Assembly: GCA_947172415.1 (NCBI GenBank)
Contig: OX359193.1
Location: 816,501-880,500 of the forward strand
Direction: 5' to 3'
DNA: 64,000 nt
DNA from: Chondrosia reniformis
Lineage: Eukaryota > Porifera > Demospongiae > Chondrillida > Chondrillidae
The notes under the pieces were generated by a model. That model was not told the origin of the DNA, made no database searches, and saw only the letters and a list, made by a program, of their open reading frames with translations. Positions 30,366 through 52,331 of this stretch are shown here, one piece after another; within the stretch, counting starts at the first letter, position 1, and every line of letters starts with the position of its first letter. The position numbers and the translations under genes are program-made.

Positions 30366-33160
30366 AATTTAATGCACATTATAGTGCTGTAACTCTTCCA
30401 AATGAAGAGATATATATGAATCTGAAACTCTATCTCAGTATTCACAGAGATGTAGGAAAGGTTTTCATTGAGTTTTGGAAATTTTAATATCTACTCAAAT
30501 TTGCCCTATCTCTCACCATACATTAACTTCGTGTAGCAGTAATAAAAAGTACATCAAGTGCTGTAACTCTTCCAAATGAAGAGATAAGAATCTGAAACTC
30601 TATCTCAGTATTTACAGAGATGTATGAAAGGTTTTCATTGAGTTTTGCAAATTTTGATATCTACTCAAATTTGCCCTATCTCTCACCATACATTAACTTG
30701 GTATACCAGAAGTTAATGTACTTTGAGGGCTGTAACTCTATCAAATGGAGAGATATGAAGCTAACCATTTGTGTCAGCATTCACAGACATCTATACAACA
30801 TGTCCAATAGGTTTTTGAAATTTTGATGAAACTTAAAATTTGCCCTATCTCTCACCATACATTAACTTTCTATACCTTAATTTAATGTACATTGAGGGCT
30901 GTAACTCTATCAAATGGAGAGATATGAAGCTAAACCTTTGTGTCAGCATTCACAGACATCTATACAACATGTCCAATGGGTTTTTGAAATTTTGATGAAA
31001 CTTGCCCTATCTCTCACCATACGTACATAAACTTTCTATACCAGAAGTTAATGTACATTGAGGGCTGGAACTCTATCAAATAGAGAGATATGAAGCTAAA
31101 CATTTGTGTCAGCATTCACAGACATCTATACAACATGTCCAATGGGTTTTTGAAATTTTGATGAAACTTAAAATTTGCCCTATCTCTCACCATACATTAA
31201 CTTGGTATACCAGAAGTTAATGTACTTTGAGGGCTGTAACTCTATCAAATGGAGAGATATGAAGCTAAACCTTTGTGTCAGCATTCACAGACATCTAAAG
31301 AGCATGTCCAATGGGTTTGTGAACTTTTGATGAAACTTAAAATTTGCCCTATCTCTCACCATACATTAACTTTCTATATCTTAATTTAATGTACATTGAG
31401 GGCTGTAACTCTATCAAATGGAGAGATATGAAGCTAAACCTTTGTGTCAGCATTCACAGATCTCTATAGAGCATGTCCAATGGGTTTGTGAAATTTTGAT
31501 GAAACTTAAAATTTGCCCTATCTCTCACCATACATTAACTTTCTATATCTTAATTTAATATACATTGAGGGCTGTAACTCTATCAAATGGAGAGATATGA
31601 AGCTAAACCTTTGTGTCAGCATTCACAGACATCTATACAACATGTCCAATGGGTTTTTGAAATTTTGATGAAACTTGCCCTATCTCTCACCATACGTACA
31701 TTAACTTTCTATACCAGAAGTTAATGTACATTGAGGGCTGTAACTCTATCAAATGGAGAGATATGAAGCTAAACCTTTATGTCAGCATTCACAGACATCT
31801 ATAGAGCATGTCCAATGGGTTTGTGAAATTTTGATGAAACTTAAAATTTGCCCTATCTCTCACCATTCGTACATTAACTTTGTATACCAGAATTTAATGT
31901 ACTTTGAGGGCTGTAACTCTTTCAAATGGAGAGATATGAAGCTAAATCTTTGTGTCAGCATTCACAGACATCTATAGAGCATGTCCAATGGGTTTTTGAA
32001 ATTTTGATGAAACTTAAAATTTGCCCTATCTCTCACCATACATTAACTTTGTATCCCAGAAGTTAATGTACATTGAGGGCTGTAACTCTATAAAATGGAG
32101 AGATATGAAGCTAAACCTTTGTGTCAGCATTCACAGATCTCTATAGAGCATGTCCAATGGGTTTTTGAAATTTTGATGAAACTTAAAATTTGCCCTATCT
32201 CTCACTATACATTAACTTTGTATCCCGGAAGTTAATGTACATTGAGGGCTGTAACTCTATCAAATGGAGAGATATGAAGCTAAACCTTTGTGTCAGCATT
32301 CACAGACATCTATAGAGCATGTACAATGGGTTTTTGAAATTTTGATGAAACTTAATATTTGCCCTATCTCTCACCATACATTAACTTTGTATCCCAGAAG
32401 TTAATGTACATTGAGGGCTGTCACTAAATCAAATGGAGAGATATGAAGCTAAACCTTTGTGTCCGCATTCACAGACATCTATACAACATGTCCAATGGGT
32501 TTTTGAAATTTTGATGAAACTTAAAATTTGCCCTATCTCTCACCATACATTAATTTTGTATCCCAGAAGTTAATGTACATTGAGGGCTGTAACTCTATCA
32601 AATGGAGAGATATGAAGCTTAACCTTTGTGTCAGCATTCACAGACATCTATAGAGCATGTCCAATGGGTTTTTGAAATTTTGATGAAACTTAAAATTTGC
32701 CCTATCTCTCACCATACATTAATTTTGTATTCCAGAGGTTAATGTACATTGAGGGCTGTAACTCTATCAAATGGAGAGATATGAAGCTTAACCTTTGTGT
32801 CAGCATTCACAGACATCTATAGAGCATGTCCAATGGGTTTTTGAAATTTTGATGAAACTTAAAATTTGCCCTATCTCTCACCATACATTAACTTTGTATA
32901 CCTTAATTTAATGTACATTGAGGGCTGGAACTCTATCAAATGGAGAGATATGAAGCTAAACCTTTGTGTCAGCATTCACAGACATCTATACAACATGTCC
33001 AATAGGTTTTTGAAATTTTGATGAAACTTAAAATTTGCCCTATCTCTCACTATATGTACATTAACTTTGTATACCAGAATTTAATGTACTTTGAGGGCTG
33101 TCACTCCATCAAATGGAGAGATATGAAGCTACATCTTTGTTTCAGCATTCACAGACATCT
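30366..33160 (+). repeat. Satellite array of ~169-bp monomers, about 16 copies
   Basis: Head-to-tail monomers with ctatcaaatggagagatatg, gtgtcagcattcacagacat and ttgccctatctctcaccata. The first one or two belong to a subfamily with ttccaaatgaagagatatga; the rest are highly similar to each other, indicating recent amplification. No promoter or gene seen inside. Confidence 0.95.
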
Positions 33161-33167
33161 AATATAA

Positions 33168-34899: not shown

Positions 34900-35699
34900 A
34901 ACAGTACAAATGGAGAGATATGAAGCTAAATCTTTTTGTCAGCATTCACAGACATCCTATAGAGCATGTCCAATGGGTTTGTGAAATTTTGATGAAACTT
35001 AAAATTTGCCCTATCTCTCACCATACATTAACTTTCTATACCAGAAATTAATGTACATTGAGGGCTGTCACTCTATCAAATGGAGAGATATGAAGCTAAA
35101 CCTTTGTGTCAGCATTCACAGACATCTATAGAGCATGTCCAATGGGTTTTTGAAATTTTGATGACACTTAAAATTTGCCCTATCTCTCACCATACATTAA
35201 CTTCGTATAGCAGTAATAAAAAATAAATTAAGTGCTGTAACTCTTCCAAATGAAGAGATATGTATCTGAAACTCTATCTCAGTATTCACAGAGATGTATG
35301 AAAGGTTTTCATTGAGTTTTGCAAATTTTGATATCTACTCAAATTTGCCCTATCTCTCACCATACATTAACTGTGTATATTTAAAGTACATTAAGTGTTG
35401 TAACTCTTCCAAATGAAGAGATATGAATCTGAAACTCTATCTAAGTATTCACAGAGATGTATGAAAAGTTTTTATTAAGTTTTGCAAATTTTGGTATCTA
35501 CTCAAATTTGCCCTATCTCTCACCATACATTAACTTCGTATAGCAGTAATAAAAAATACATCAAGTGCTGTAACTCTTCCAAATGAAGAGATATGAATCT
35601 AACACTCTATCTCATTATTCACAGAGATGTATGAAATGTTTTCATTGAGTTTTGCAAATTTTAATACCTACTCAAATTTGCTCTATCTCTCACCATACA
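34900..35699 (+). repeat. Satellite array, second block (both subfamilies)
   Basis: About five monomers in the same orientation as the main array although they follow the inverted unit B: two of the central subfamily, then three of the outer subfamily (ttccaaatgaagagatatga, ttttcattgagttttgcaaa). Confidence 0.9.
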
Positions 35700-36740
35700 T
35701 TAGCTAACCCTGCGTAATTGTGTAATACTACTTCATATATTTCTGATAATTAGAACTCTTTGAAGGATTTTTATACACATGGATATGCACTGTGTAGTAC
35801 TTGATTGTTGTTGAAGCAGTATTTATCCACATATATTATATGGATGTCGTTAAAGTGAAATTTCGTCAATCGACAGCCAACGAAACTCCAAAGAAAAAAA
35901 GCTGGACCATACCGAACTCTACCATCCACGACGCTCATAGGCCGGGATCGGTGGTAACGCTCTGCCGAGTTGAGCTTTGGGTGTCACTTGCGCGAGAAGA
36001 ACCAGTTCTTCTCGATATGGCCGACTCATATGAATCCTTAAAGATATCAGATGCCAATCCCACATTACGTGGAACCCCCCCGAAATCCGGATTATTGGTG
36101 AGCACGTCTCTATGGCACCAACCGATTAGGAGACAGCTTCAGAGTCTAAGCGCTACCAACCCCTATGGGAACCGCTACCACCATAGAGATGTGTCCAGGT
36201 AGGCCTACTTTATAAGGTTTTGCGCTTCTATTTAAACAACAAAATTTCAAAAGGAAACGATTGTGGTTGGCGCTATTCCATACTTAAGAATAGGGTATTT
36301 GCGAGAAAAATGTAGTCAAATTATATCAAGTTAATTCGGGATGAGTGCATCGTTCCAAGCCATTTTAAAGGTATATCCAGTATTTGTGGTTCATCTAGAA
36401 ACTGGGAAAAATGGATAGAATCCTGTAAGTGTCTTGATTGGCGAAGGAGAACTACTTTTCTGGTCCCACGTAGAAACGATTTTAGCGAGAGGTGTTCCGA
36501 TATGAACGTAAACTAGTATAACCAGCCACACTCAATCTCAATTGCTGTAATAGTAGAATGGCTACCTGCCTCTATATAAAGACCTTCTGACAGCTGCGTT
36601 CTGGACTGTCCCTGCGTGTTTCTAGTTGCCCCATTCATGTCAAATCATTTTAACTTGGTATGCCGATAATTTCCATAATAGTATCGCACGATATAAATGC
36701 TACACCATTAAAGGTCGTATAGTAGAAATTTAATGTACAT
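35700..36740 (+). repeat. Unit C of the ~1-kb sequence, with an intact 133-codon frame
   Basis: Close copy of unit A. The frame 35801-36202 is open for 133 codons (key segments NETPKKKSWTIPN, GSVVTLCRVELWV, ISDANPTLRGTPPKSG) and ends just after a possible splice donor (CAG|GTAGGC). It resembles no family I know and has no clear transposase motif. It may be a captured exon or a non-coding repeat core. Confidence 0.75.
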
Positions 36741-37083: not shown

Positions 37084-38318
37084 TTAAAAATTTGTGATCG
37101 GGCTGTAATCTTGTTGAGGGTTTGAGCAGTTGCTAAGCAGTGGGGAGCTAATAGTGCGTAAATGACTCTTCAGCTTCCATCCCTGACGCCTTCCATCCAA
37201 GCCAAACTTGTACTTGACGTAAGCCCATCTCTTTGAAGAAGGTTTCCAAGAGGGAAGTCCCGCGTGCTGAAGCTCTCTGTTAAACCAGGAACGGATGGAG
37301 TCGGCTGGAAACGCGTTCGAGACACTGACTGGTGTAAACTCCTGTGGAAATCTCCTCAGGAGAGCCTGTTCTACCTGATTATAGTGAGGCTTCGCGGGCG
37401 GCTGGCGACCGTTGGAAGGATCTGAAGCTCTCGTGACCAAAGACTCTATCGTTTCTATAAAATTAATAGACAATATCAATGACACATCACCATCAGTTAA
37501 AAAGATTATCATACGTACCTCCCAATTCGTCAAAAGCATATCGAAGAACAAAGTCGTCAATTTCTTTCTTTTCTATACCCAAATCACTGCCATATTTATG
37601 GTACACCTGCAGCTGCGTCCTCAACTGAGTCGCCACTTTAGTCAAAAAGACTTTCTTATGAAGCGCTCTGGATGCTATGGGACTCCTAAAGAAATCCTGC
37701 TTCTTTGGACTGTATACCTTGGTGTGAATTTGCTCACTAAAAGTTACCTAAAAATATAGAATAAAAGTACACGGGTAACTGTGAACACCAAGACCAAAAA
37801 ATATAGTGTACCCATACCTTTTTACTGCTCAGGCTATCCGTAGCGTTTGGAGGAGCAAGAAATTTACAGAGCTCGCCCGATATATAAAACTGTTCCTCTT
37901 TAGACAAGCCAGTAACTTCCCAAATGGACGAGTTTTCTTGCGTCGCAATGGTAAGGAGGTGAACGGTGCGACCATCTATTTCAAGAGCTCTGAAAACTCG
38001 ATGTATATATCTGAAAGATAGGAAGTGCAGTAACGTAAACACTATTAACGATGAAATAGATTGTAAACTTACGGTAAAAGAGTCGGTTGCGTCTGTATCC
38101 AGGTATCCAGGTCATCCGCGCTCCAAGTCCGCCAAACGGAATAGGGAACGCTTTCCTGGTCACTTTGACAGGAACTGGTAAAGGAGGATGGAATATTTGA
38201 ATTTGTCAGCTGGAGAGAGAGAAGCGAATGATGACACAATATACGATAAGAAACCTTATAAGTTTACAGCAACTGGGTAACAACTCACTTCAATGTCAAT
38301 CGCATCCCGTCTAGCCAT
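37084..38318 (-). CDS. Unassigned protein with a SAM-like domain
   Basis: Five exons in phase: 38289-38318, 38073-38209, 37818-38010, 37519-37747, 37084-37454; 319 residues, all introns short and canonical. Residues about 40-110 (TWSADDLDTWIQTQPTLLPY, IDGRTVHLLT, IWEVTGLSKEEQF) have the W...L..W / aliphatic / IDG..L..LT spacing of a sterile-alpha-motif-like helical domain; this is inference. A second helical block follows (LRTQLQVYHKYGSDLGIEKK). The C-terminal third carries ADSIRSWFNRELQHAGLPSW and a basic WKLKSHLR. No signal peptide or membrane segment. I do not recognise the family. It lies tandem and only 150 bp from the stop of the RRM/F-box gene, so the latter's 3' UTR must be very short. 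Confidence 0.7.
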
Positions 38319-38470
38319 GATAATTCACTTTTTCGAGATTTTCACAAGTTATGAATGAATGAATATTAGAGAATAAAAAGGCGTTTATATGCCACTTTAA
38401 TTCATTAATTTAGGCGGTAATTTCTTAAACTGTTAATGATAAAAATTCATTTTTATCTGAAGAAAACTGC

Positions 38471-41400
38471 TCAATCAAAGTCAAAGTCCTCTGGATTGCT
38501 AAATTCATCGCTATACATAGCCGGGTCGTCGACCTGCAAGAAGTCATACTCTAGAGCTTCTTCATCGCTCTCAAGACCTGGCCAGTCATCATCTATTTCA
38601 TTTACATGCCTCATGTCAAAGGGCTGATGTAGCTCCTCTTCCCAATTTTCATCTGCAAGGAGATGAAAAATACTTGCAGGAGTGATTTTAAAAACCTAAA
38701 CACTTAAGTGCAAAGTATACCAAACATCATACTTGCATTAAGTCTTAAAAATACTCCTACTAGTCTAAAAATGGATGCCTACTTCTACTAGTCTAAAAAT
38801 GGATGCCTACTTCTACTAGTCTAAAATGAATGCCTACTTACCCAACTAATAACTTATAATATATAGCATATGTAATGGCACAGTGTCCAAACTTCTACAG
38901 TTCACTGTGTCTGAGCTTATATAGCCAACAAAGTTGGCAGTTCAAAGTGAACCGGCTAATTAACACTTTCTTTATAGTCCTGTCTTCAAAAGGACTTCAA
39001 ACTAATCACAAATTTACCTGAAATACAATTTTTAAAGGCAATATAATATTTTATTTCACTAATCTTTACTATACTTTTGGTATAAGAATATTATACATAG
39101 ATGATAGGGATTTCCTCTACCTGTGCCAAACTTATTGAGATAAGACTAAAGATGAGCCATCCCAGAGGTACGTATACGTTTCTTCTCACCGAAATTCATA
39201 TAAGGGTCACAAGCTTGAGCTAACTTTGCTATTGACAAGTCATACAGGGAGACTGTTACGCCTACATTTCTAGCAAATTCAAGAGCCTCCACTGGATCAA
39301 CTGATGTACCTATAGAGATTGGCCAATCAGATATAAATGATTTTAGTCTCTTCAATCTTGAAACACTATACCAAGTAAAAAACATCAAATTACTATACAG
39401 CACGTTTAACACATTTAGTAGTAGTGGACCACAAGTTTCTGGCCCTACTTCAGTATAACTTATCCGTTTACAGTAACTGTTGTACTGCACTTAACTGATT
39501 ACATGCAAGAAATGTGTCCTATATTTACCTCCAAATACTATAGTAAAATCGGAGCCTTCCTTTTTGTGTACAAATTGTAGTGTTTCCTGCAGTATGGGTA
39601 AAACCCTATTAGTTACAGAGAGGCAGCCAGATATATCAACCTCTTGCAACTCTGGACAGGAAGAACACAACTGTCCAATACCTAAAACAATACAAAAACT
39701 AATAGATTAAGGGGAAATACCCTTATTATATGGACACGTAAGATGGTCCAAATGTAGTAATACTGGAAGGGACAGAAGACCCGCTTAATTTGTAATTGTC
39801 TGCAGTGCATTACATCTGCTTCAACAACACACTCTCATACGTACCTCATGTGTAGGATGCAGCATCATTCATTCATTCCAACTTACCTCTGTCGCTGATG
39901 TGAAGGCAGGCCCTTAAAGAGACTTTCTGCAACATTTCATGGCCTACACTCAGTGAGACTAAACCATCATCAGTGACCTGTGTAAAGAAGGTCAAAGGTC
40001 AACTACAAATGTACCATTGAATAACTACATACAATGTATATAGATACTGGATTTTGATATTATAAGTGTACAATTTGAATCCAGCTATTAACAGGGAATA
40101 ATAAAAATCAAAGTCTGCTGATATAAAACACAAAATAATTAGATTTTTTTTAGATTTTTAGATATTTATCCAATATTTCTTTATAGTCTACAGTGATGTG
40201 ACTGACATTGGCACCAATGTAGACCTACAATCGTCATACCTAGTGACAGTAGTTGTACAATCTGATACAAACCCTTAAAATCCTAATTAGCAGCTATTCA
40301 GAATTTGCAGCTGTTTCTTGTACAAGTGTATACAGTTTTATATTGAAAGGGTACAAATTTGTACACTTTGTACAAGAAACAGCTGAAAAGGACCTAAAGT
40401 AATAGCTTTTATGTAAGATTTTAAGGGTTTATCCCAGATTGTGTTAAATGTAGACCCACAATCACCATACCTTGTGACAGTAGTTGAGTACAATGTGACT
40501 GAGACGGGTACACTCTGAGAGATACTGTATGCCAACATCAGTAATCGCCTGACATAGCTCAACTGACAGATACCTATACAGTACAGTATATGCATGTACA
40601 GTATGTGTATATATGTACAGTCATAGACCTCATGCCGTAATTAATGTGAAATGGAGAGTACTGAAATGGAGAGCTACTGAAATGGAGAGCTACTAAAATG
40701 GAGAGCTACTGAAATGGAGAGCTACTGAAGTTGAGAGCTACTGAAGTGGAGAGCTACTGAAGTGGAGAGCTACTGAAATGGAGAGCTACGTATACCTTAG
40801 CTCTTGGCAGTTTGCTCCAAGGACACAAAGCACGTCATCAGTGACTGACATATGCTTGTCCAGGACCAGTTCTTGCTGCAAAGAAAAAGAAATTCAATTT
40901 GACACATTTATTCTGAGACACTCCATATTAGGAAGTAACAATTAACAATAACATTGTAATAGAATGGCAGCCATATGCTCAAAGATGTTGGAAGAACTGT
41001 AATGATACAGGCATGCTAGGCAGACATTGAACCTCTCTAATGTGGAACTGTACCAAATCATGTAGTTGTCCCAAGGAGAGAAAGTGTTCAGTAGAAACAT
41101 CTTTGTTTCCATCACTAGCAAAATAGAGGTTCTTTAGGAGTAGGCAGTTCTGCATGAAAGAGAATAACATTCTTACACATAAACATGATACTATACAACT
41201 TACACAATTTATATGTTATATATGGGTATGTATGTATGTATGTGTACATTTTAAGGGGATGGTATACAGACCTTCGCTAGAGCTACAATGGCACTTCCTG
41301 ATAGCTTGGAGCACCTGCTGATGTCCACATGCACTAAATGGGAGCTCCTTTGTGCTAGCATGTCCACACCGGCATCTGTCAGCTACTTCAAATAGCATAC

Positions 41401-44038
41401 AATATATAACTATGGGTACACCAGACGCACAACTACAAGCAATGTACACAGGCGGATACGCAGAGCTGAGTGAGGGAACATCTGTAAACTACAAATAGTG
41501 AGATCTTCATGTCTTACATTTGTGCAATCCGCCAACACAATCTCTTTGATGGACATTCCAGCTTGGAAAAAGCACTGCAAGTACATGAGGCACACGTCGG
41601 CTCATCACAAACTAGACTCAACTACCCTTAACACTAAATGCACTACAGCAATACACAACATTTTATTAAACACAAATTTACCAACAAGCACATTGATGAG
41701 CTCTAAGGAGGTCAAAATAGCAGTCTGTGGTTCTTTGAAGGTAATCACTGGTTGCAACTTTAATAGGACTTTGCATGGTCTCCCAACCAAGATAAGACTT
41801 TAGTTCACTGGCTGGTATGGCATAATATATTCCAGTGATTATCCATAGCATAACATAGCCTTTACAGAGGCATTGTACAAGTAACTCATTTTTATTAATC
41901 AGGTACACATAACTACAATACAATGGCTACTCTAGAATGTTGTTGGACATTAAGAATACCTGGCCAGTGAGTCTTCTATTATCTGTCAAGTTGAGATACT
42001 CCAAAGACTTGAGGCTGTTTAACACCCACCATACCGCCTTCTCCCCAATGTCTTGGCAGTGACACACGTTCAAGTACTACATTCACAGACATCAATAAGC
42101 AATCACAAGATAAAGCAACCTGCCACCCCTCTGGCCCCACCCCCAACCACCTCTGGCCCCACCCCCAACCACCTCTGGCCCCACCTCCAGTCAGTTTCTC
42201 AAAACTGTAAATGTATACTTTTAAGTGTCTCAATCTGACAGCAAAGTTTAGAATTAAGAAATGAGATTCTCTAAAAAGTACAGTACAATTGATCCATATT
42301 TGTATTTCATCCAAAATTTGGCCTTCAGGGATTGAATGGGTAATGAACTGTTACCTTTAAATGGGGGAGGCGCTGGACCATGTTCTTCAGGGAAACTTTA
42401 GTGGTTCCCATGTTTGTCAGATTAAGGTTGAGAACGTTAGGACAAAAGGTCCCTATGAGATCCAGGGCAAAGTGAGAGAGGCGATATGGCGAGGAGGAGA
42501 GGTCTAGAGATACCAGACTTTTGCCACAGCGTTGCAGCATCATACGCAACTGACCATCAGTGAGACCTAGAGAATAGATAGTTACACAACTCATTAAAAA
42601 CATTGCCATGAAATGATTACAATTATTTTATGAAATCTCAGAAGGAAAAAAGGATTTTCCAAACATATTTGTTTGTAGTCTACAGCAGAAACAATTATTT
42701 ACACATCAACTATAATAGTGGCCATGTTTATAATAACCATTACCTCCATTACCGCCTCTGAAGATTGACTTGAAAATATTCTCAAAACTCAACTGTTTTA
42801 CTGTTAACCAAGAGCGCTGTGCCAATCTATGCCACCTTCTACACACTGAAATTTAGAATTTAAAGCCAGTTAATAATTTGATGTGATATAAATACATTGA
42901 CAATGTACCTCTTTCAGTAGTAATGCGATCTGTGATATTAAGATAACCAAAGACCGTCAGCCACAGGTCGTCGGTGAGGTCTACTACCTTTGCATGGAAT
43001 GGCGGAACCCTATTATTAAATGTGGGCGTGGTCTGGGATCCAGAGAGTTTCTGACTATGCAATTGTGTTTCATCTTCACTGCAAGAGGCTCCATCAGATT
43101 CGCCACTTTGCACTTTGGAATTCTGCAACTCAACTAACCACAAAGTGGAGGATGTGATAGTGAAAAGTGATAGTGATAGTGATGGTGATAGTGATAGGGA
43201 AGGTGATGGTAGCAGTGATGGTGATGGTAGCAGTGAAGGTGATGGTGACAGTGAAGGTGATGGTGACAGTGAAGGTGATGGTGACAGTGAAGGTGATGGT
43301 GACAGTGAAGGTGATGGTGACAGTGAAGGTGATGGTGACAGTGAAGGTGATGGCGACAGTGATGGTGATGGTAGCAGTGATGGTGATGGTAGCAGTGAAG
43401 GTGATTGTTGAAAGAACATCAGCAGAGGGTTACTGTAATAGTGACCTCTTTTTGGTGTTTTTGGTAGTGCTATTCTCAGTTGCCGTCCGTCCAGCACTAG
43501 CTGATCTGAAGGTGGATCAGCTAACAGGAGATCAGCAGTTTTCTTTTCTTTGAAAGTAACAAATCCAATTCTGAAGAAGAAAGCACGATTGCGCACTCAA
43601 TAAACACTCCAAATGTGCATGGTGATAACACAGTCTACAGTGAGTCAGAATTTGTAACAGACAGCTAATTTTCTGGAATCTAGATGCTGACTTATAAAAA
43701 TACATTTCCTTACCCTCTTGACCAACCCTTTCTGTGGTCCTTCACGATGCGACATTTTTCGACATCACCAAATTTAAGAAAGAAAGATTTTAGTTCACGT
43801 CTCGTAATCTAAAGTAATGAAAAACACAATCTATCCCAGTTTTAATTAATCTTGGGCTTAAAGTGTCCCGGTCCCGTAGCTATGAAGTAATAAACAACAA
43901 CGCAAAGATTATAATATACAGTCTGGCTCAAGTTTCTTTAGGCGTGCATTGTTCAAAACTTGCTCTATAACTGATATTTCCAACAAAGAGCTTTCGACCC
44001 CTACGGGAGTCACTAGGGGTTTCTCCCTTGGCAGCCAT
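38471..44038 (-). CDS. RRM + F-box + leucine-rich-repeat protein with acidic tail
   Basis: Fifteen exons in phase: 43964-44038, 43714-43808, 42909-43570, 42744-42845, 42355-42566, 41960-42076, 41518-41574, 41272-41382, 41033-41149, 40796-40875, 40471-40573, 39887-39977, 39529-39681, 39190-39309, 38471-38652; 758 residues, or 654 if a 312-nt in-frame stretch of exon 3 (43134-43445) is spliced out. RRM at residues 16-97: RNP2 KLFVGNI and RNP1 SRGIGFVTF. F-box near the end of exon 3 and in exon 4: VVDLTDDLWLTVFGYL and VCRRWHRLAQRSW. Then cysteine-type LRRs (LVHVDISRCSKLSGSAIVAL, LQEVDISGCLSVTNR). Last 60 residues are Asp/Glu-rich. The F-box should recruit SKP1-CUL1; the LRRs usually bind substrate; the RRM suggests RNA contact. 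Intron 1 has a GC donor (AGA|GCAAGT). Confidence 0.85.
38735..38830. repeat. 28-bp tandem repeat, 3 copies
   Basis: Unit tctaaaaatggatgcctact plus tctactag, in the last intron of the RRM/F-box/LRR gene. Confidence 0.85.
40216..40497. repeat. Palindromic element flanked by copies of an exon end
   Basis: A ~168-bp hairpin (about 40266-40433) with arms starting acaaacccttaaaatc and a strong inner stem gcagctgtttcttgtacaag. It is flanked by two ~45-bp direct copies, 40216-40260 and 40447-40497; the second is the 3' end and donor of exon 40471-40573 (atacctt/cgtgacagtagtt). Part of the exon end was duplicated around the element. Confidence 0.75.
40640..40795. repeat. 16-bp minisatellite, about 9 copies
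   Basis: Unit ggagagctactgaaat; runs directly up to the donor of exon 40796-40875. Confidence 0.9.
41735..41845. repeat. Dispersed hairpin-type repeat, copy 2
   Basis: Diverged copy of the element at 17745-17870 (aatcactggttgc, taataggacttt, ttccagtgattat). Confidence 0.7.
42115..42190. repeat. 22-bp tandem repeat, 3 copies
   Basis: Unit ctggccccacccccaaccac plus ct, in an intron of the RRM/F-box/LRR gene. Confidence 0.85.
43150..43410. repeat. 18-bp minisatellite, open in frame inside exon 3 of the RRM/F-box/LRR gene
   Basis: Unit gacagtgaaggtgatggt and variants, about 14 copies. On the gene's strand it reads SPSPSL repeats without a stop. Lies within the putative 312-nt optional intron. 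Confidence 0.95.
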
Positions 44039-44131: not shown

Positions 44132-46345
44132 ATGGTTATATATGAAATGGATAATGAAGTAAAGTATGGTAAATTTCACAATAAACATGGAGCAAATATA
44201 GTTTTTTATGAAGACCAGCGCGTTGCGCATCGGAAAGACAGCTACCACAAAGGAGTGGTGTTTACCGAACAACCACTTGAAATAGGCAGTTTATTTCAAT
44301 TAAAGATACTCGACAAGGGCGGAGGATGGGCAGGCGCCCTGGTGAGTATACTGTAGTCCTAATGTTATCAGCGCGCTCTGCACGTAATCGCCAAATCCAC
44401 GCATCTGATTGCTTAAACCTTATCAACGTGTTTTACACGGAAAGAAGCTTTATTATTATTATTATTGTTGTTGTTGAAAAACACACCAGTGAAGGTGCGA
44501 AAGAACAAAGACAAATGTAAAATGATTAAAGTGTTAAGGTTACATGGTGGAGGATGAAGATACAATAAAATTAATTATATTTGTGTAATTCTGTTTTGAT
44601 TGTTGTGTATGATTTAATTGTATTAGAAACATTCTATTCAATATTATTATTTATGCTGGCTGTTGGAGGATCCTTTAGCTATATTTGCATACCTTTGAGA
44701 TGGTTCTTTAGTCTTTTGAGCGTCTAGAGACGCAGTTTGTTTCATTAGAATAGAACCTTTTGACTCTGATGTCTTCTTCAGCTGCCATATTTGCATAACT
44801 CATACAAACAGTCTTGTATCATATCGTTATTTAAGTTAAAATATCTTCTGTTGTAAACTTTTCAAAAACATGCAAATGCATAGAACTACTTGTGTGAACC
44901 ACCCATCTATCTGTTACTTGTGTGAACCATTCGTCTCTCTGTAGCGAATAGGTTTTACTCAGCATGATCCAGAGACTGGGATACCTTCGGGAGCTCTAGA
45001 TTGCTACAACAACTCACACTACTGGATCCTCTCTGCGTCTACAGTCCACCACGATGGGAAGGAACACAAAATGGACTTCAGTATAGAGGAGCTAAAGGTG
45101 CAGGATTCCATAGGGTGTTGCATAACCAATGAAGGAGAACTGAAATATTTTGTGAATGGGCAGGACAGGGGGGTGGGGTGGAAGAATGTCCCAACAGACA
45201 GACCCTTATGGGGCTTTGCAGACTTGTACGGACTTACAAGGAAAGTCAAATCAGAGTTCACATTTGGTGAGCGAGTTGTCTCGCAAATGATGTATTTACA
45301 ATGTAGTGCAATGATTCACAGTCATTGTCATAAATACAGGTCGATGGAATCGGGCTTTCCTTTAATTAATAGATGTATACTGCCCATGTGTTAATTAATA
45401 ATAAGAAAATTCATTTGGATCCATTTTATTAATGTAGAATAGAGAAACAATACCGTAATTTGGGAAATTTTCGTTGTTAAAATATTTTCATGGTTGGCCC
45501 AAACCATGAAAATTTCTCACCCGAAATATTTTTAACAACAAAATAATAATGCGTACGATCTATGTATATACAACATACGGTCACGCAAACCACTGAAAAT
45601 GGCTCTACTGCGATACCTGCAACCATGGATCCATGCTGCAACGCAAGGATGATCCCTTTTGTAATCCTCACACGAAAATCTCCCAAATTACGGTATATTA
45701 CACTCAATGTACATTGAACTGAACCTGTGTGACCTTACTAGTTAAGGGGTAGTTTAGTGTGATCTAAATAACTGTATTAACTCTAATTAATGTACAACAT
45801 TACACCATATAATGTCTAATTAATGGTGAGGTAATGTTTTGGAATAATGCCTTAGTATGTGAAATCAAGTGAATTGTTTTTTTGTTGTTGTAAAGTATAA
45901 CAATGCTGTTAGAGAGTATAGTAGTACTCTCTAAGTAGATAGTCATGGCCGCCCTAATCTATATATTTTCAATTAACACCCAATAAATTCTTTAATAGTT
46001 TCAACTGAGTGACTACCACTTCTTTAAGCTAGATAATAAGGATTTCTTCTAACTGTTTCAAACTTTTCTTTGAGATGGTTCATCTTTAGTCGTTTGAGTG
46101 TCTGAAGATGCAGTTTGCTTCTAGTGAATCATCAGTTATTGAAGACCCCATGGCTAGGGTCGGAATGTCCGATTCTCAAGAAACAAACTGCATCTCTAGA
46201 CATTTAAAAGACAACCATCTCAAAGATTCCTTGAGCTGGTGAATATTTGATGTGAGATGTCGTGTGTTGAATTATGCAACATTCCTCTGTAGCCCAATTC
46301 ATGGATTGTAGAGAAGATGAAGACTTGCAAGATGTTACTGGATAG
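44132..46345 (+). CDS. Neuralized homology repeat (NHR) protein
   Basis: Exons 44132-44341, 44945-45266 and 46293-46345 join in phase to about 194 residues. Almost the whole protein is one NHR domain: KHGANIVFYEDQRVAHRKDS, GVVFTEQPLEIGSLFQLKIL, GWAGALRIGFTQHDPETG, then GELKYFVNGQDRGVGW and RPLWGFADLYGLTRKVKSEF. NHR domains in Neuralized proteins bind ubiquitin-ligase substrates such as Notch ligands. Unlike NEURL2 there is no C-terminal SOCS box, and unlike NEURL1 no RING finger; the last exon adds only 17 residues, which leaves partner recruitment unexplained. The start could also be the Met at 44147. The last exon is short and rests on splice signals alone. Two MITE-like elements sit in the second intron. 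Confidence 0.75.
44640..44810. repeat. Hairpin-family element with gaaga...tc core, copy 1 (degenerate)
   Basis: Contains gagcgtctagagacgcagtt and cttcttcagctgcc, shared with the elements at 46030-46250, 54690-54850, 56865-57045 and 58365-58500. Confidence 0.6.
45450..45700. repeat. MITE-like element with terminal inverted repeats
   Basis: Left end accgtaatttgggaaatttt and right end, inverted, accgtaatttgggagatttt. An inner palindrome (catggttggcccaaaccatg) lies near the left end. In the second intron of the NHR gene. Confidence 0.85.
46030..46250. repeat. Hairpin-family element, copy 2
   Basis: Arms tttgagatggttcatcttta and the inverse near the right end; central agggtcggaatgtccgatt. Same family as 56865-57045. 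Confidence 0.75.
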
Positions 46346-49400: not shown

Positions 49401-52331
49401 CTTCTTCTCTCTTCAGTTTCCTTCCATCCTTGGGTGAGGGCCACTTGCTAGGTAGCTCAAGTTAAAGGAAGCCACAGGAATTACACACAAGTAACTGGGC
49501 ATCACATCACTACACTGCTATAACTAGATTCATCACATCACTACACTGCAATAACTAGATTCATGACATCATTACACTATTATAACTAGATTCATCACAA
49601 TCACTGCAGCTATATATAACTAGATTCATCACATCACTACACTACAATAACTATAGTACTATAACATCTGGTGTAACTCTATTGAACAGGTGACTATTAA
49701 TTAAAAGCGGCAGCCTGATGTTAATTAATTAGTGACCACACCCCTAAATGCAATGACCACACTCACAAAGTGGAATGACCACACCCACAAAGTGGAATGA
49801 CCACACCCACAAAGTGCAATGACCACACCCACTCTTAGACAGGTAATCGTACTAGCTAGATGATCAGCTATAAGTAGATTACTGTTTCTATGGAAACGAT
49901 GGGATACTCCTCCGTTCCTTTAAGGGGTGTATGCCTGCATAGCTGGAGTCCGAGGAAGACTACAAACTGCATTAGGTCCACCATGAATCTCTTGCGCAAT
50001 GCAACTACCATAAAGTGGTGATATATGTAGATAAATGGACACAGAGAAGAGAGAATGCAAGCTCCCTCTACTGACTTCTGTCTTCTTCAGATCTACATTT
50101 TGACATCATTTCTGCATTAGCTGTTCGGTCCTTGATGGATACATTACTGACAAGGTCAAATGTTTCAAATAACCTATCACCAGGTGTCAAAGGTCAAAGA
50201 CAAAAGTATTACATAAAGTGACTATCAACAAATAATGCAACACAAACTGAGCACATGCAGTAAGTGAATGTGCCTTCATATCAATTATCATTATAAGTGT
50301 GGGTAGGGGGGGTGGAGATGATACTGCTATATAAGTGTGGGTAGGGGGGTGGAGATGATACTGTTATATAAGTGTGGGTAGGGGGGTGGAGATGATACTG
50401 CTATATAAGTGTGGGTAGGGGGGTGGAGATGATACTGTTATATAAGTGTGGGTAGGGGGTGGAGATGATACTGCTATATAAGTGTGGGTAGGGGGTGGAA
50501 ATGATACTGCTATATAAGTGTGGGTAGGGGGGTGGAGATGATACTGTTATATAAGTGTGGGTAGGGGGGTGGAGATGATACTGTTATATAAGTGTGGGTA
50601 GGGGGGTGGAGATGATACTGTTATATAAGTGTGGGTAGGGGGGTGGAGATGATACTGTTATATAAGTGTGGGTAGGGGGGTGGAGATGATACTGTTATAT
50701 AAGTGTGGGTAGGGAGGTGGAGATGATACTGCTATATAAGTGTGGGTAGGGGGTGGAGATGATACTGTTATATAAGTGTGGGTAGGGGGGTGGAGATGAT
50801 ACTGCTATATAAGTGTGGGTAGGGAGGTGGAGATGATACTGTTATATAAGTGTGGGTAGGGGGTGGAGATGATACTGTTATATAAGTGTGGGTAGGGGGG
50901 TGGAGATGATACTGTTATATAAGTGTGGGTAGGGGGGTGGAGATGATACTGCTATATAAGTGTGGGTAGGGAGGTGGAGATGATACTGTTATATAAGTGT
51001 GGGTAGGGGGTGGAGATGATACTGTTATATAAGTGTGGGTAGGGGGGTGGAGATGATACTGTTATATAAGTGTGGGTAGGGGGGTGGAGATGATACTGTT
51101 ATATAAGTGTGGGTAGGGGGGTGGAGATGATACTGTTATATAAGTGTGGGTAGGGAGGTGGAGATGATACTGTTATATAAGTGTGGGTAGGGGGGTGGAG
51201 TTGATACTGTTATATAAGTGTGGGTAGGGGGGTGGAGATGATACTGTTATATAAGTGTGGGTAGGGGGTGGAGATGATACTGTTATATAAGTGTGGGTAG
51301 GGGGTGGAGATGATACTGTTATATAAGTGTGGGTAGGGGGGTGGAGATGATACTGTTATATAAGTGTGGGTAGGGGGGGTGGAGATGATACTGTTATATA
51401 AGTGTGGGTAGGGGGGTGGAGATGATACTGCTATATGAGTGTGGGTAGGGGGTGGAGATGATACTGTTATATAAGTGTGGGTAGGGGGGTGGAGATGATA
51501 CTGTTATATAAGTGTGGGTAGGGGGGTGGAGATGATACTGTTATATAAGTGTGGGTAGGGGGTGGAGATGATACTGTTATATAAGTGTGGGTAGGGGGGT
51601 GGAGATGATACTGTTATATAAGTGTGGGTAGGGGGGGTGGAGATGATACTGTTATATAAGTGTGGGTAGGGGGGTGGAGATGATACTGCTATATGAGTGT
51701 GGGTAGGGGGTGGAGATGATACTGTTATATAAGTGTGGGTAGGGGGGTGGAGATGATACTGTTATATAAGTGTGGGTAGGGGGGTGGAGATGATACTGTT
51801 ATATAAGTGTGGGTAGGGGGTGGAGATGATACTGTTATATAAGTGTGGGTAGGGGGGTGGAGATGATACTGTTATATAAGTGTGGGTAGGGGGGTGGAGA
51901 TGATACTGTTATATAAGTGTGGGTAGGGGGGTGGAGATGATACTGTTATATAAGTGTGGGTAGGGGGGTGGAGATGATACTGTTATATAAGTGTGGGTAG
52001 GGGGGTGAGGCTAAAATGTCCACCATTAACAACTTACAACCATGCTTGGTCTTCTGAAAGACGCATTTTTCCGATTGCAAGCGACTGCCACGTGCTGTAT
52101 TTTAGCCACGGGTGCGAACCAGTGGATTTACATCGAGAGACAAACTTCTTCAGGTGCTATATAAAGTGATTTCGAAAACGGTAGCATTAATATTCAAAGC
52201 AGACAAACTTGTAAACGTATTACACAAATTAATGAAGTACGTACGTTCCACGAATATTGCGGCTCATGTCCACTGTCATAGTGCAGTATTCCAAAATGCA
52301 ACACTTCACTGCGAGGCCAAATAACAGCCAT
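46479..52331 (-). CDS. TBCCD1: TBCC domain-containing protein 1
   Basis: Twelve exons, 5' to 3': 52245-52331, 52038-52156, 50076-50173, 49935-50004, 49338-49447, 48826-48968, 48443-48615, 48066-48197, 47875-47997, 47296-47622, 46965-47047, 46479-46538. The protein follows vertebrate TBCCD1 along its length: WLKYSTWQSLAIGKMRLSED, LQLC|SKWPSPKD, then the beta-helical TBCC domain (VNIEKCSNCQIVLGPV, VVAVNGCDNVTLSTICRRLQ, APYNTHYAQLGTHATEAGL, DANRWDTPFVINS). TBCCD1 anchors the centrosome/Golgi near the nucleus and localises to basal bodies; the arginine finger of TBCC itself is not evident. Two joints are irregular: 49935 has a GC donor, and 47296 to 47047 is out of phase unless a microexon (about 11 nt) is present. 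A second Met six bases upstream (52337) is possible. Confidence 0.87.
47091..47213. repeat. Imperfect hairpin
   Basis: Arms tgacatttaggaaatattac and gtaatatttcctaaatgtca enclose about 80 bp. The adjacent aatcaatgagtcattt is repeated near 47264, at the donor of the 47296-47622 exon. Confidence 0.75.
48170..48275. repeat. 28-bp tandem repeat carrying a splice acceptor, 3 copies
   Basis: Unit gtatgagctgcaggaaggtc plus aaagtgca. On the minus strand each copy holds cctgcag|ctcatac; the copy nearest the exon is the acceptor of TBCCD1 exon 48066-48197. Confidence 0.85.
49008..49337. repeat. 26-bp minisatellite, about 12 copies, ending at a TBCCD1 donor
   Basis: Unit tactggtggggaggtgtgtc plus ctatag. 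It abuts the donor of the 49338-49447 exon; on the minus strand units read accagtac, close to the real donor ccag|gtact. Confidence 0.92.
49485..49835. repeat. Two short tandem arrays (31 bp and 22 bp)
   Basis: 49485-49645: about five copies of taactagattcatcacatca plus ctacactgcta. 49725-49835: four to five copies of gaccacacccacaaagtgga plus at. Both in a TBCCD1 intron. Confidence 0.85.
50285..52010. repeat. 37-bp G-rich minisatellite, about 46 copies
   Basis: Unit tataagtgtgggtagggggg plus tggagatgatactgtta; the G run varies from 5 to 7. Lies in the 1.9-kb intron between TBCCD1 exons 50076-50173 and 52038-52156. Each unit contains GGG, GGGGGG and GG runs close together. Confidence 0.97.

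Follow-up and report, generated by a model that had tools for sequence, protein, structure and literature searches.

A predicted sponge gene joining an RRM, an F-box and leucine-rich repeats

Receptors of the FBXL type, such as FBXL2, FBXL17 and SKP2, are built from an F-box followed by leucine-rich repeats (LRRs), the F-box needing SKP1 as its partner, and to our knowledge the known FBXL proteins carry no RRM. The mRNA export factors NXF1/TAP contain an RRM and LRRs in one protein; we know of no F-box in NXF1. RNA-binding ubiquitin ligases (RBULs) hold an RNA-binding domain and a ligase part in one chain and are defined by a HECT, RING or RBR domain, with the RRM among the classes listed in the available part of the source (PMC5707401), whose main text contains the term F-box 0 times. 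CFB2 of Trypanosoma brucei is an F-box protein which binds SKP1 and is associated with mRNA; it has an MKT1 motif, and LRRs are not named among its domains in the sections available (PMC8051951). Pof8 of fission yeast, in which RRMs are present, was initially described as a putative F-box protein, but it is a La-related telomerase protein whose F-box could not be confirmed, according to the available text (PMC5805746).

A different arrangement was found in a window of 64,000 nucleotides on chromosome 5 of the demosponge Chondrosia reniformis, where an RRM, an F-box and LRRs are predicted to follow each other in a single protein of 654 residues. The gene is predicted at approximately 854971-860538 of the chromosome. 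Its coding region runs on the minus strand from an ATG at 44038 to a TGA at 38471 of the window and comprises 16 exons in a phase-consistent predicted splice model. The original prediction of a continuous and phase-consistent model was borne out, except for its count of 15 exons, which becomes 16 with intron 3 parting exons 3 and 4. The features are as follows.

38471..44038, minus strand: whole coding region, 16 exons, stop at 38471 (predicted splice model)
43964..44038, minus strand: exon 1, start codon, RNP2 KLFVGNI, GC donor at its end (model and Pfam RRM_1)
43714..43808, minus strand: exon 2, RRM helix 1 and strand 2, assigned by eye (model and Pfam)
43446..43570, minus strand: exon 3, remainder of the RRM including RNP1 (RGIGFVTF, which starts in exon 2) (model)
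43134..43445, minus strand: intron 3, length 312 bases and divisible by 3, open in frame (model)
42909..43133, minus strand: exon 4, linker, then the N-terminal portion of the F-box (model and Pfam)
42744..42845, minus strand: exon 5, C-terminal portion of the F-box with VCRRWHRLA (model and Pfam, F-box residues 150-188)
42355..42566, minus strand: exon 6, first LRRs (model)
39529..42076, minus strand: exons 7-14, remaining LRRs (model; best PDB match FBXL2)
42076-41960, 41574-41518, 41382-41272 and 41149-41033, minus strand: exons 7-10, LRRs
40875-40796, 40573-40471, 39977-39887 and 39681-39529, minus strand: exons 11-14, LRRs
39190..39309, minus strand: exon 15, between the LRRs and the tail (model)
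38471..38652, minus strand: exon 16, acidic tail (model)
38396..38401, minus strand: ATTAAA hexamer resembling a poly(A) signal, 70 bases past the stop (consensus match only)

In the predicted model, 14 out of 15 introns are of the GT-AG type. The exception is intron 1, a GC-AG intron with the donor AGA/GCAAGT, which was kept due to the fact that the GT donors seen by eye in exon 1 either break the frame or lose RNP2. Splice sites were scored with a small matrix built from other introns of the same gene, by which the GC donor of intron 1 and the donor of intron 15 reach -0.9 and -0.7, respectively, and the acceptor of intron 3 reaches -0.5, the lowest value of the 15 acceptors. The donor used for exon 3 scores 7.0. 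An alternative donor of this exon, GTAACC at 43433, has the same phase and would add four residues; it is absent from those scoring above 2.

RNP2, RNP1, the F-box and the acidic tail of the original prediction were all recovered on the minus strand, with the domains above their Pfam cut-offs. RRM_1 is matched with an E-value of 4.6e-14 and 52.5 bits (cut-off 20.7) at residues 17-70, corresponding to model positions 1-53 of 70; the part of the RRM beyond model position 53 was assigned by reading of the sequence rather than by the Pfam match. The F-box (PF00646) is matched at residues ~150-188 with an E-value of 2.3e-6 and 27.7 bits (cut-off 20.5), and the F-box-like family PF12937 with 2.4e-6 and 27.7 bits (cut-off 24.3). 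LRR_6 follows with 6.2e-9 and 35.7 bits (cut-off 23.4). Where at least nine LRRs had been claimed, twelve units were counted by eye between residues 224 and 538. The last 60 residues form the acidic tail, with 24 Asp/Glu and a single Lys/Arg.

Position 3 of RNP1 is usually aromatic, one of three such positions across RNP1 and RNP2. Here RNP1 reads RGIGFVTF with Ile at position 3, and Phe is kept at position 2 of RNP2 and at position 5 of RNP1, so that the RRM retains 2 out of 3 usual aromatic positions. The consensus start of the F-box is LP; the predicted F-box starts with LT. Among 20 other F-box-like stretches of the genome, a subset of the 25 detected, the Pro was judged by eye to be present in 13, absent in 6, and unclear in 1.

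Compared with solved structures, the RRM part resembles the RRMs of PABP and hnRNP A1/A2B1 among the best 60 of 245 matches. The F-box/LRR part, which was compared alone, gave 15 matches, including FBXL2 (6o60_C, E-value 1.9e-30), FBXL17 (2.5e-20), and SKP2 (4.5e-9). The sponge protein shows features of the FBXL receptors, namely an F-box domain and an LRR array after it, as well as that of RRM proteins, an RRM domain with RNP1 and RNP2; it differs from the FBXL receptors by the added N-terminal RRM and the acidic tail. Membership in three other groups was considered and ruled out. No La motif was present among the 12 Pfam families matched at E-values up to 1, which excludes the La-related proteins (Pof8, LARP7) with a La motif next to the RRM. 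Nor did these 12 families include a RING, HECT or RBR domain, by which the RING-type RBULs are excluded; the ligase part of the sponge protein is a predicted cullin-ligase adaptor, in contrast to the HECT, RING or RBR domains given for RBULs in the available part of PMC5707401. LRR_NXF1-5 (PF24048) was matched with an E-value of 0.03 and 14.3 bits, below its cut-off of 30.5, and NXF1/TAP membership was rejected for this reason. In NCBIfam, eight families were matched, all of RRM type and all below their own cut-offs.

The C. reniformis genome searched comprises 117,379,552 bases in 15 contigs, with the window situated on contig C5. It also encodes SKP1, to which four stretches at two places on contig C2 were matched. 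These two SKP1-like loci (C2 ~3736218-3736814 and 4035494-4036092) are located on the same strand, about 300 kb apart, with very similar exon spacing, and perhaps represent a recent duplication.

As judged from the DNA, a single gene in which RRM, F-box and LRRs are combined appears to be the best reading, and we consider it likely that the three parts are indeed joined. The weak point of the predicted fusion is the joint between RRM and F-box. Two adjoining genes would be the alternative, exons 1-3 encoding a small single-RRM protein and exons 4-16 an ordinary F-box/LRR protein. Genes appear tightly packed in this region, with the putative start codon of the head-to-head neighbour only 93 bases from that of the fusion gene and that of the following gene on the minus strand only 152 bases past the fusion-gene stop, and therefore the interval of 312 bases that separates exon 3 from exon 4 might be intergenic. 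The weak acceptor of intron 3 is in agreement with two genes as well, and the F-box/LRR part is complete on its own. Against this stands the frame running on from exon 3, which is free of stops until past exon 4 whether intron 3 is spliced or not, and the exon phases agree across the joint. Furthermore, the F-box part has no start codon of its own in frame, except for a Met within intron 3: in the spliced model, residues 1 and 216 have no Met between them, and if exons 3 and 4 are read through unspliced, the only in-frame ATG is found at 43419, where an RRM-less isoform may start. Neither AATAAA nor ATTAAA occurs at 43445-42909, between the two domains, whereas an ATTAAA is present downstream of the stop at 38471. 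Due to the start-codon and poly(A)-hexamer evidence, two genes were set aside as first choice and are regarded as improbable. The openness of intron 3 by itself says little, since most of the intron is filled by an 18-base minisatellite (13.9 copies, 43154-43405) which is open in other frames as well; in the frame of the fusion it reads as a Ser/Pro/Leu repeat. As the length of intron 3 is a multiple of 3 and its frame is open, a retained intron would still yield a fused protein. The GC donor of intron 1 and the low-scoring donor of intron 15 also count against the fusion. So does the chance of an open start of exon 4, whose initial 47 codons were free of stops in 1223 out of 20000 single-base shuffles (~6%) and are open in a second frame as well.

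For the fused protein, we favour with some reserve a substrate receptor of the F-box/LRR type in an SCF (SKP1-CUL1-F-box) ligase, which would be placed on ribonucleoprotein particles by its added N-terminal RRM. The F-box would dock the predicted protein on SKP1, the LRR solenoid would hold the substrate, and the RRM would bind single-stranded RNA and thereby bring the ligase to ribonucleoprotein particles, where RNA-bound proteins or the ligase itself may be ubiquitinated. The sequence itself supports the gene model and the presence of three types of domain, and from these we infer a single transcript, SKP1 binding, RNA binding and the class of substrate. Of the RNA-guided SCF ligase proposed originally, an SCF adaptor contacting RNA is a fair inference, whereas "RNA-guided" exceeds the evidence. 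The RNA more probably tethers the ligase than guides it, and the gene and domain analysis gave no sign of a guide RNA. In a sponge, an early-branching animal, RNA recognition would be linked to the SCF system by a cullin-ligase receptor that itself carries an RRM; the pairing of an RRM with a ubiquitin-ligase adaptor is unusual and suggests that RNA may help to choose what the cell destroys. In a stronger version, the RRM would recognise defined sites in RNA, and proteins bound beside these sites would be ubiquitinated through the F-box/LRR part, with the RNA sequence setting the choice of substrate. We regard this version as unlikely. If it is true and kept across sponges, an RNA-directed SCF ligase would add a cullin-based class to the RNA-binding ubiquitin ligases.

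Two further readings accept the fusion and assign its domains other roles. The F-box may act on its own protein, such that SKP1 binding limits the amount of the protein and the RRM regulates mRNAs, as has been proposed for CFB2. Deletion or mutation of the T. brucei CFB2 F-box raised the abundance of the fusion protein, and the stability of VSG mRNA depends on CFB2, as given in the sections available (PMC8051951). The same sections, however, call CFB2 an unconventional RNA-binding protein (PMC8051951), and the solenoid of twelve LRRs in the sponge protein points to substrate capture. Self-limiting use is a fair rival to the SCF receptor, although one of rather low probability. It is also conceivable that one of the domains has been shorn of its usual role, the RRM binding protein or the F-box not binding SKP1. 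Ile at position 3 of RNP1 and LT in place of LP in the F-box would fit such a loss, and a warning is given by Pof8, for which sequence and profile searches found the RRMs but did not confirm the putative F-box, according to the available text (PMC5805746). With both RRM and F-box above their Pfam cut-offs, and with the Phe residues of RNP2 and RNP1 retained, we consider a lost role very unlikely; the Pro is likewise absent from the aforementioned 6 out of 20 F-box-like stretches, as read by eye.

Animals show such shuffling of domains not infrequently, and the present finding covers a single gene in one sponge. A named RRM-F-box-LRR family was not found in the open-licence literature, searched largely by title and start of the abstract and including 40 of the 266 papers in which both F-box and RNA recognition motif are mentioned, and exact phrases joining RRM and F-box gave no open-licence paper. 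The available parts of PMC2408969 and PMC3070815 contain no RRM-F-box protein. The combination is considered unusual, and no description of it was found in the open-licence papers covered, with CFB2, Pof8 and the RING-type RNA-binding ligases as its nearest counterparts. Elsewhere in the C. reniformis genome, none of the 25 F-box-like places lies within 29 kb, on the same strand, of any of the 127 RRM places among the matches listed, the nearest pair among these being 29,179 bases apart; this proximity test cannot register domains interrupted by introns, and even the sponge fusion gene itself escapes it. Searches of two contig collections, in which a sponge gene is hardly to be expected, revealed no relative: the F-box/LRR part (556 residues) gave 2 pattern matches in the viral collection and the whole protein gave 61 in the genome collection.

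The head-to-head neighbour, situated on the plus strand at 44132-45270, encodes a Neuralized (NHR) domain (PF07177, E-value 3.4e-38), a domain which occurs in some ubiquitin-ligase proteins. It may share a promoter with the fusion gene. The next downstream gene is located on the same strand as the fusion gene (37493-38318, minus strand), and 197 hand-joined residues of it match no Pfam family at E-values up to 0.1. Two tandem arrays, at 30497-33161 and 34907-35702, have units of 169 and 170 bases which look similar, with 15.8 and 4.7 copies, respectively. A further tandem array at 50292-52007 contains 46.6 copies of a 37-base unit, one strand of which is very G-rich, with a GC skew of 0.749 at 50001-52000.
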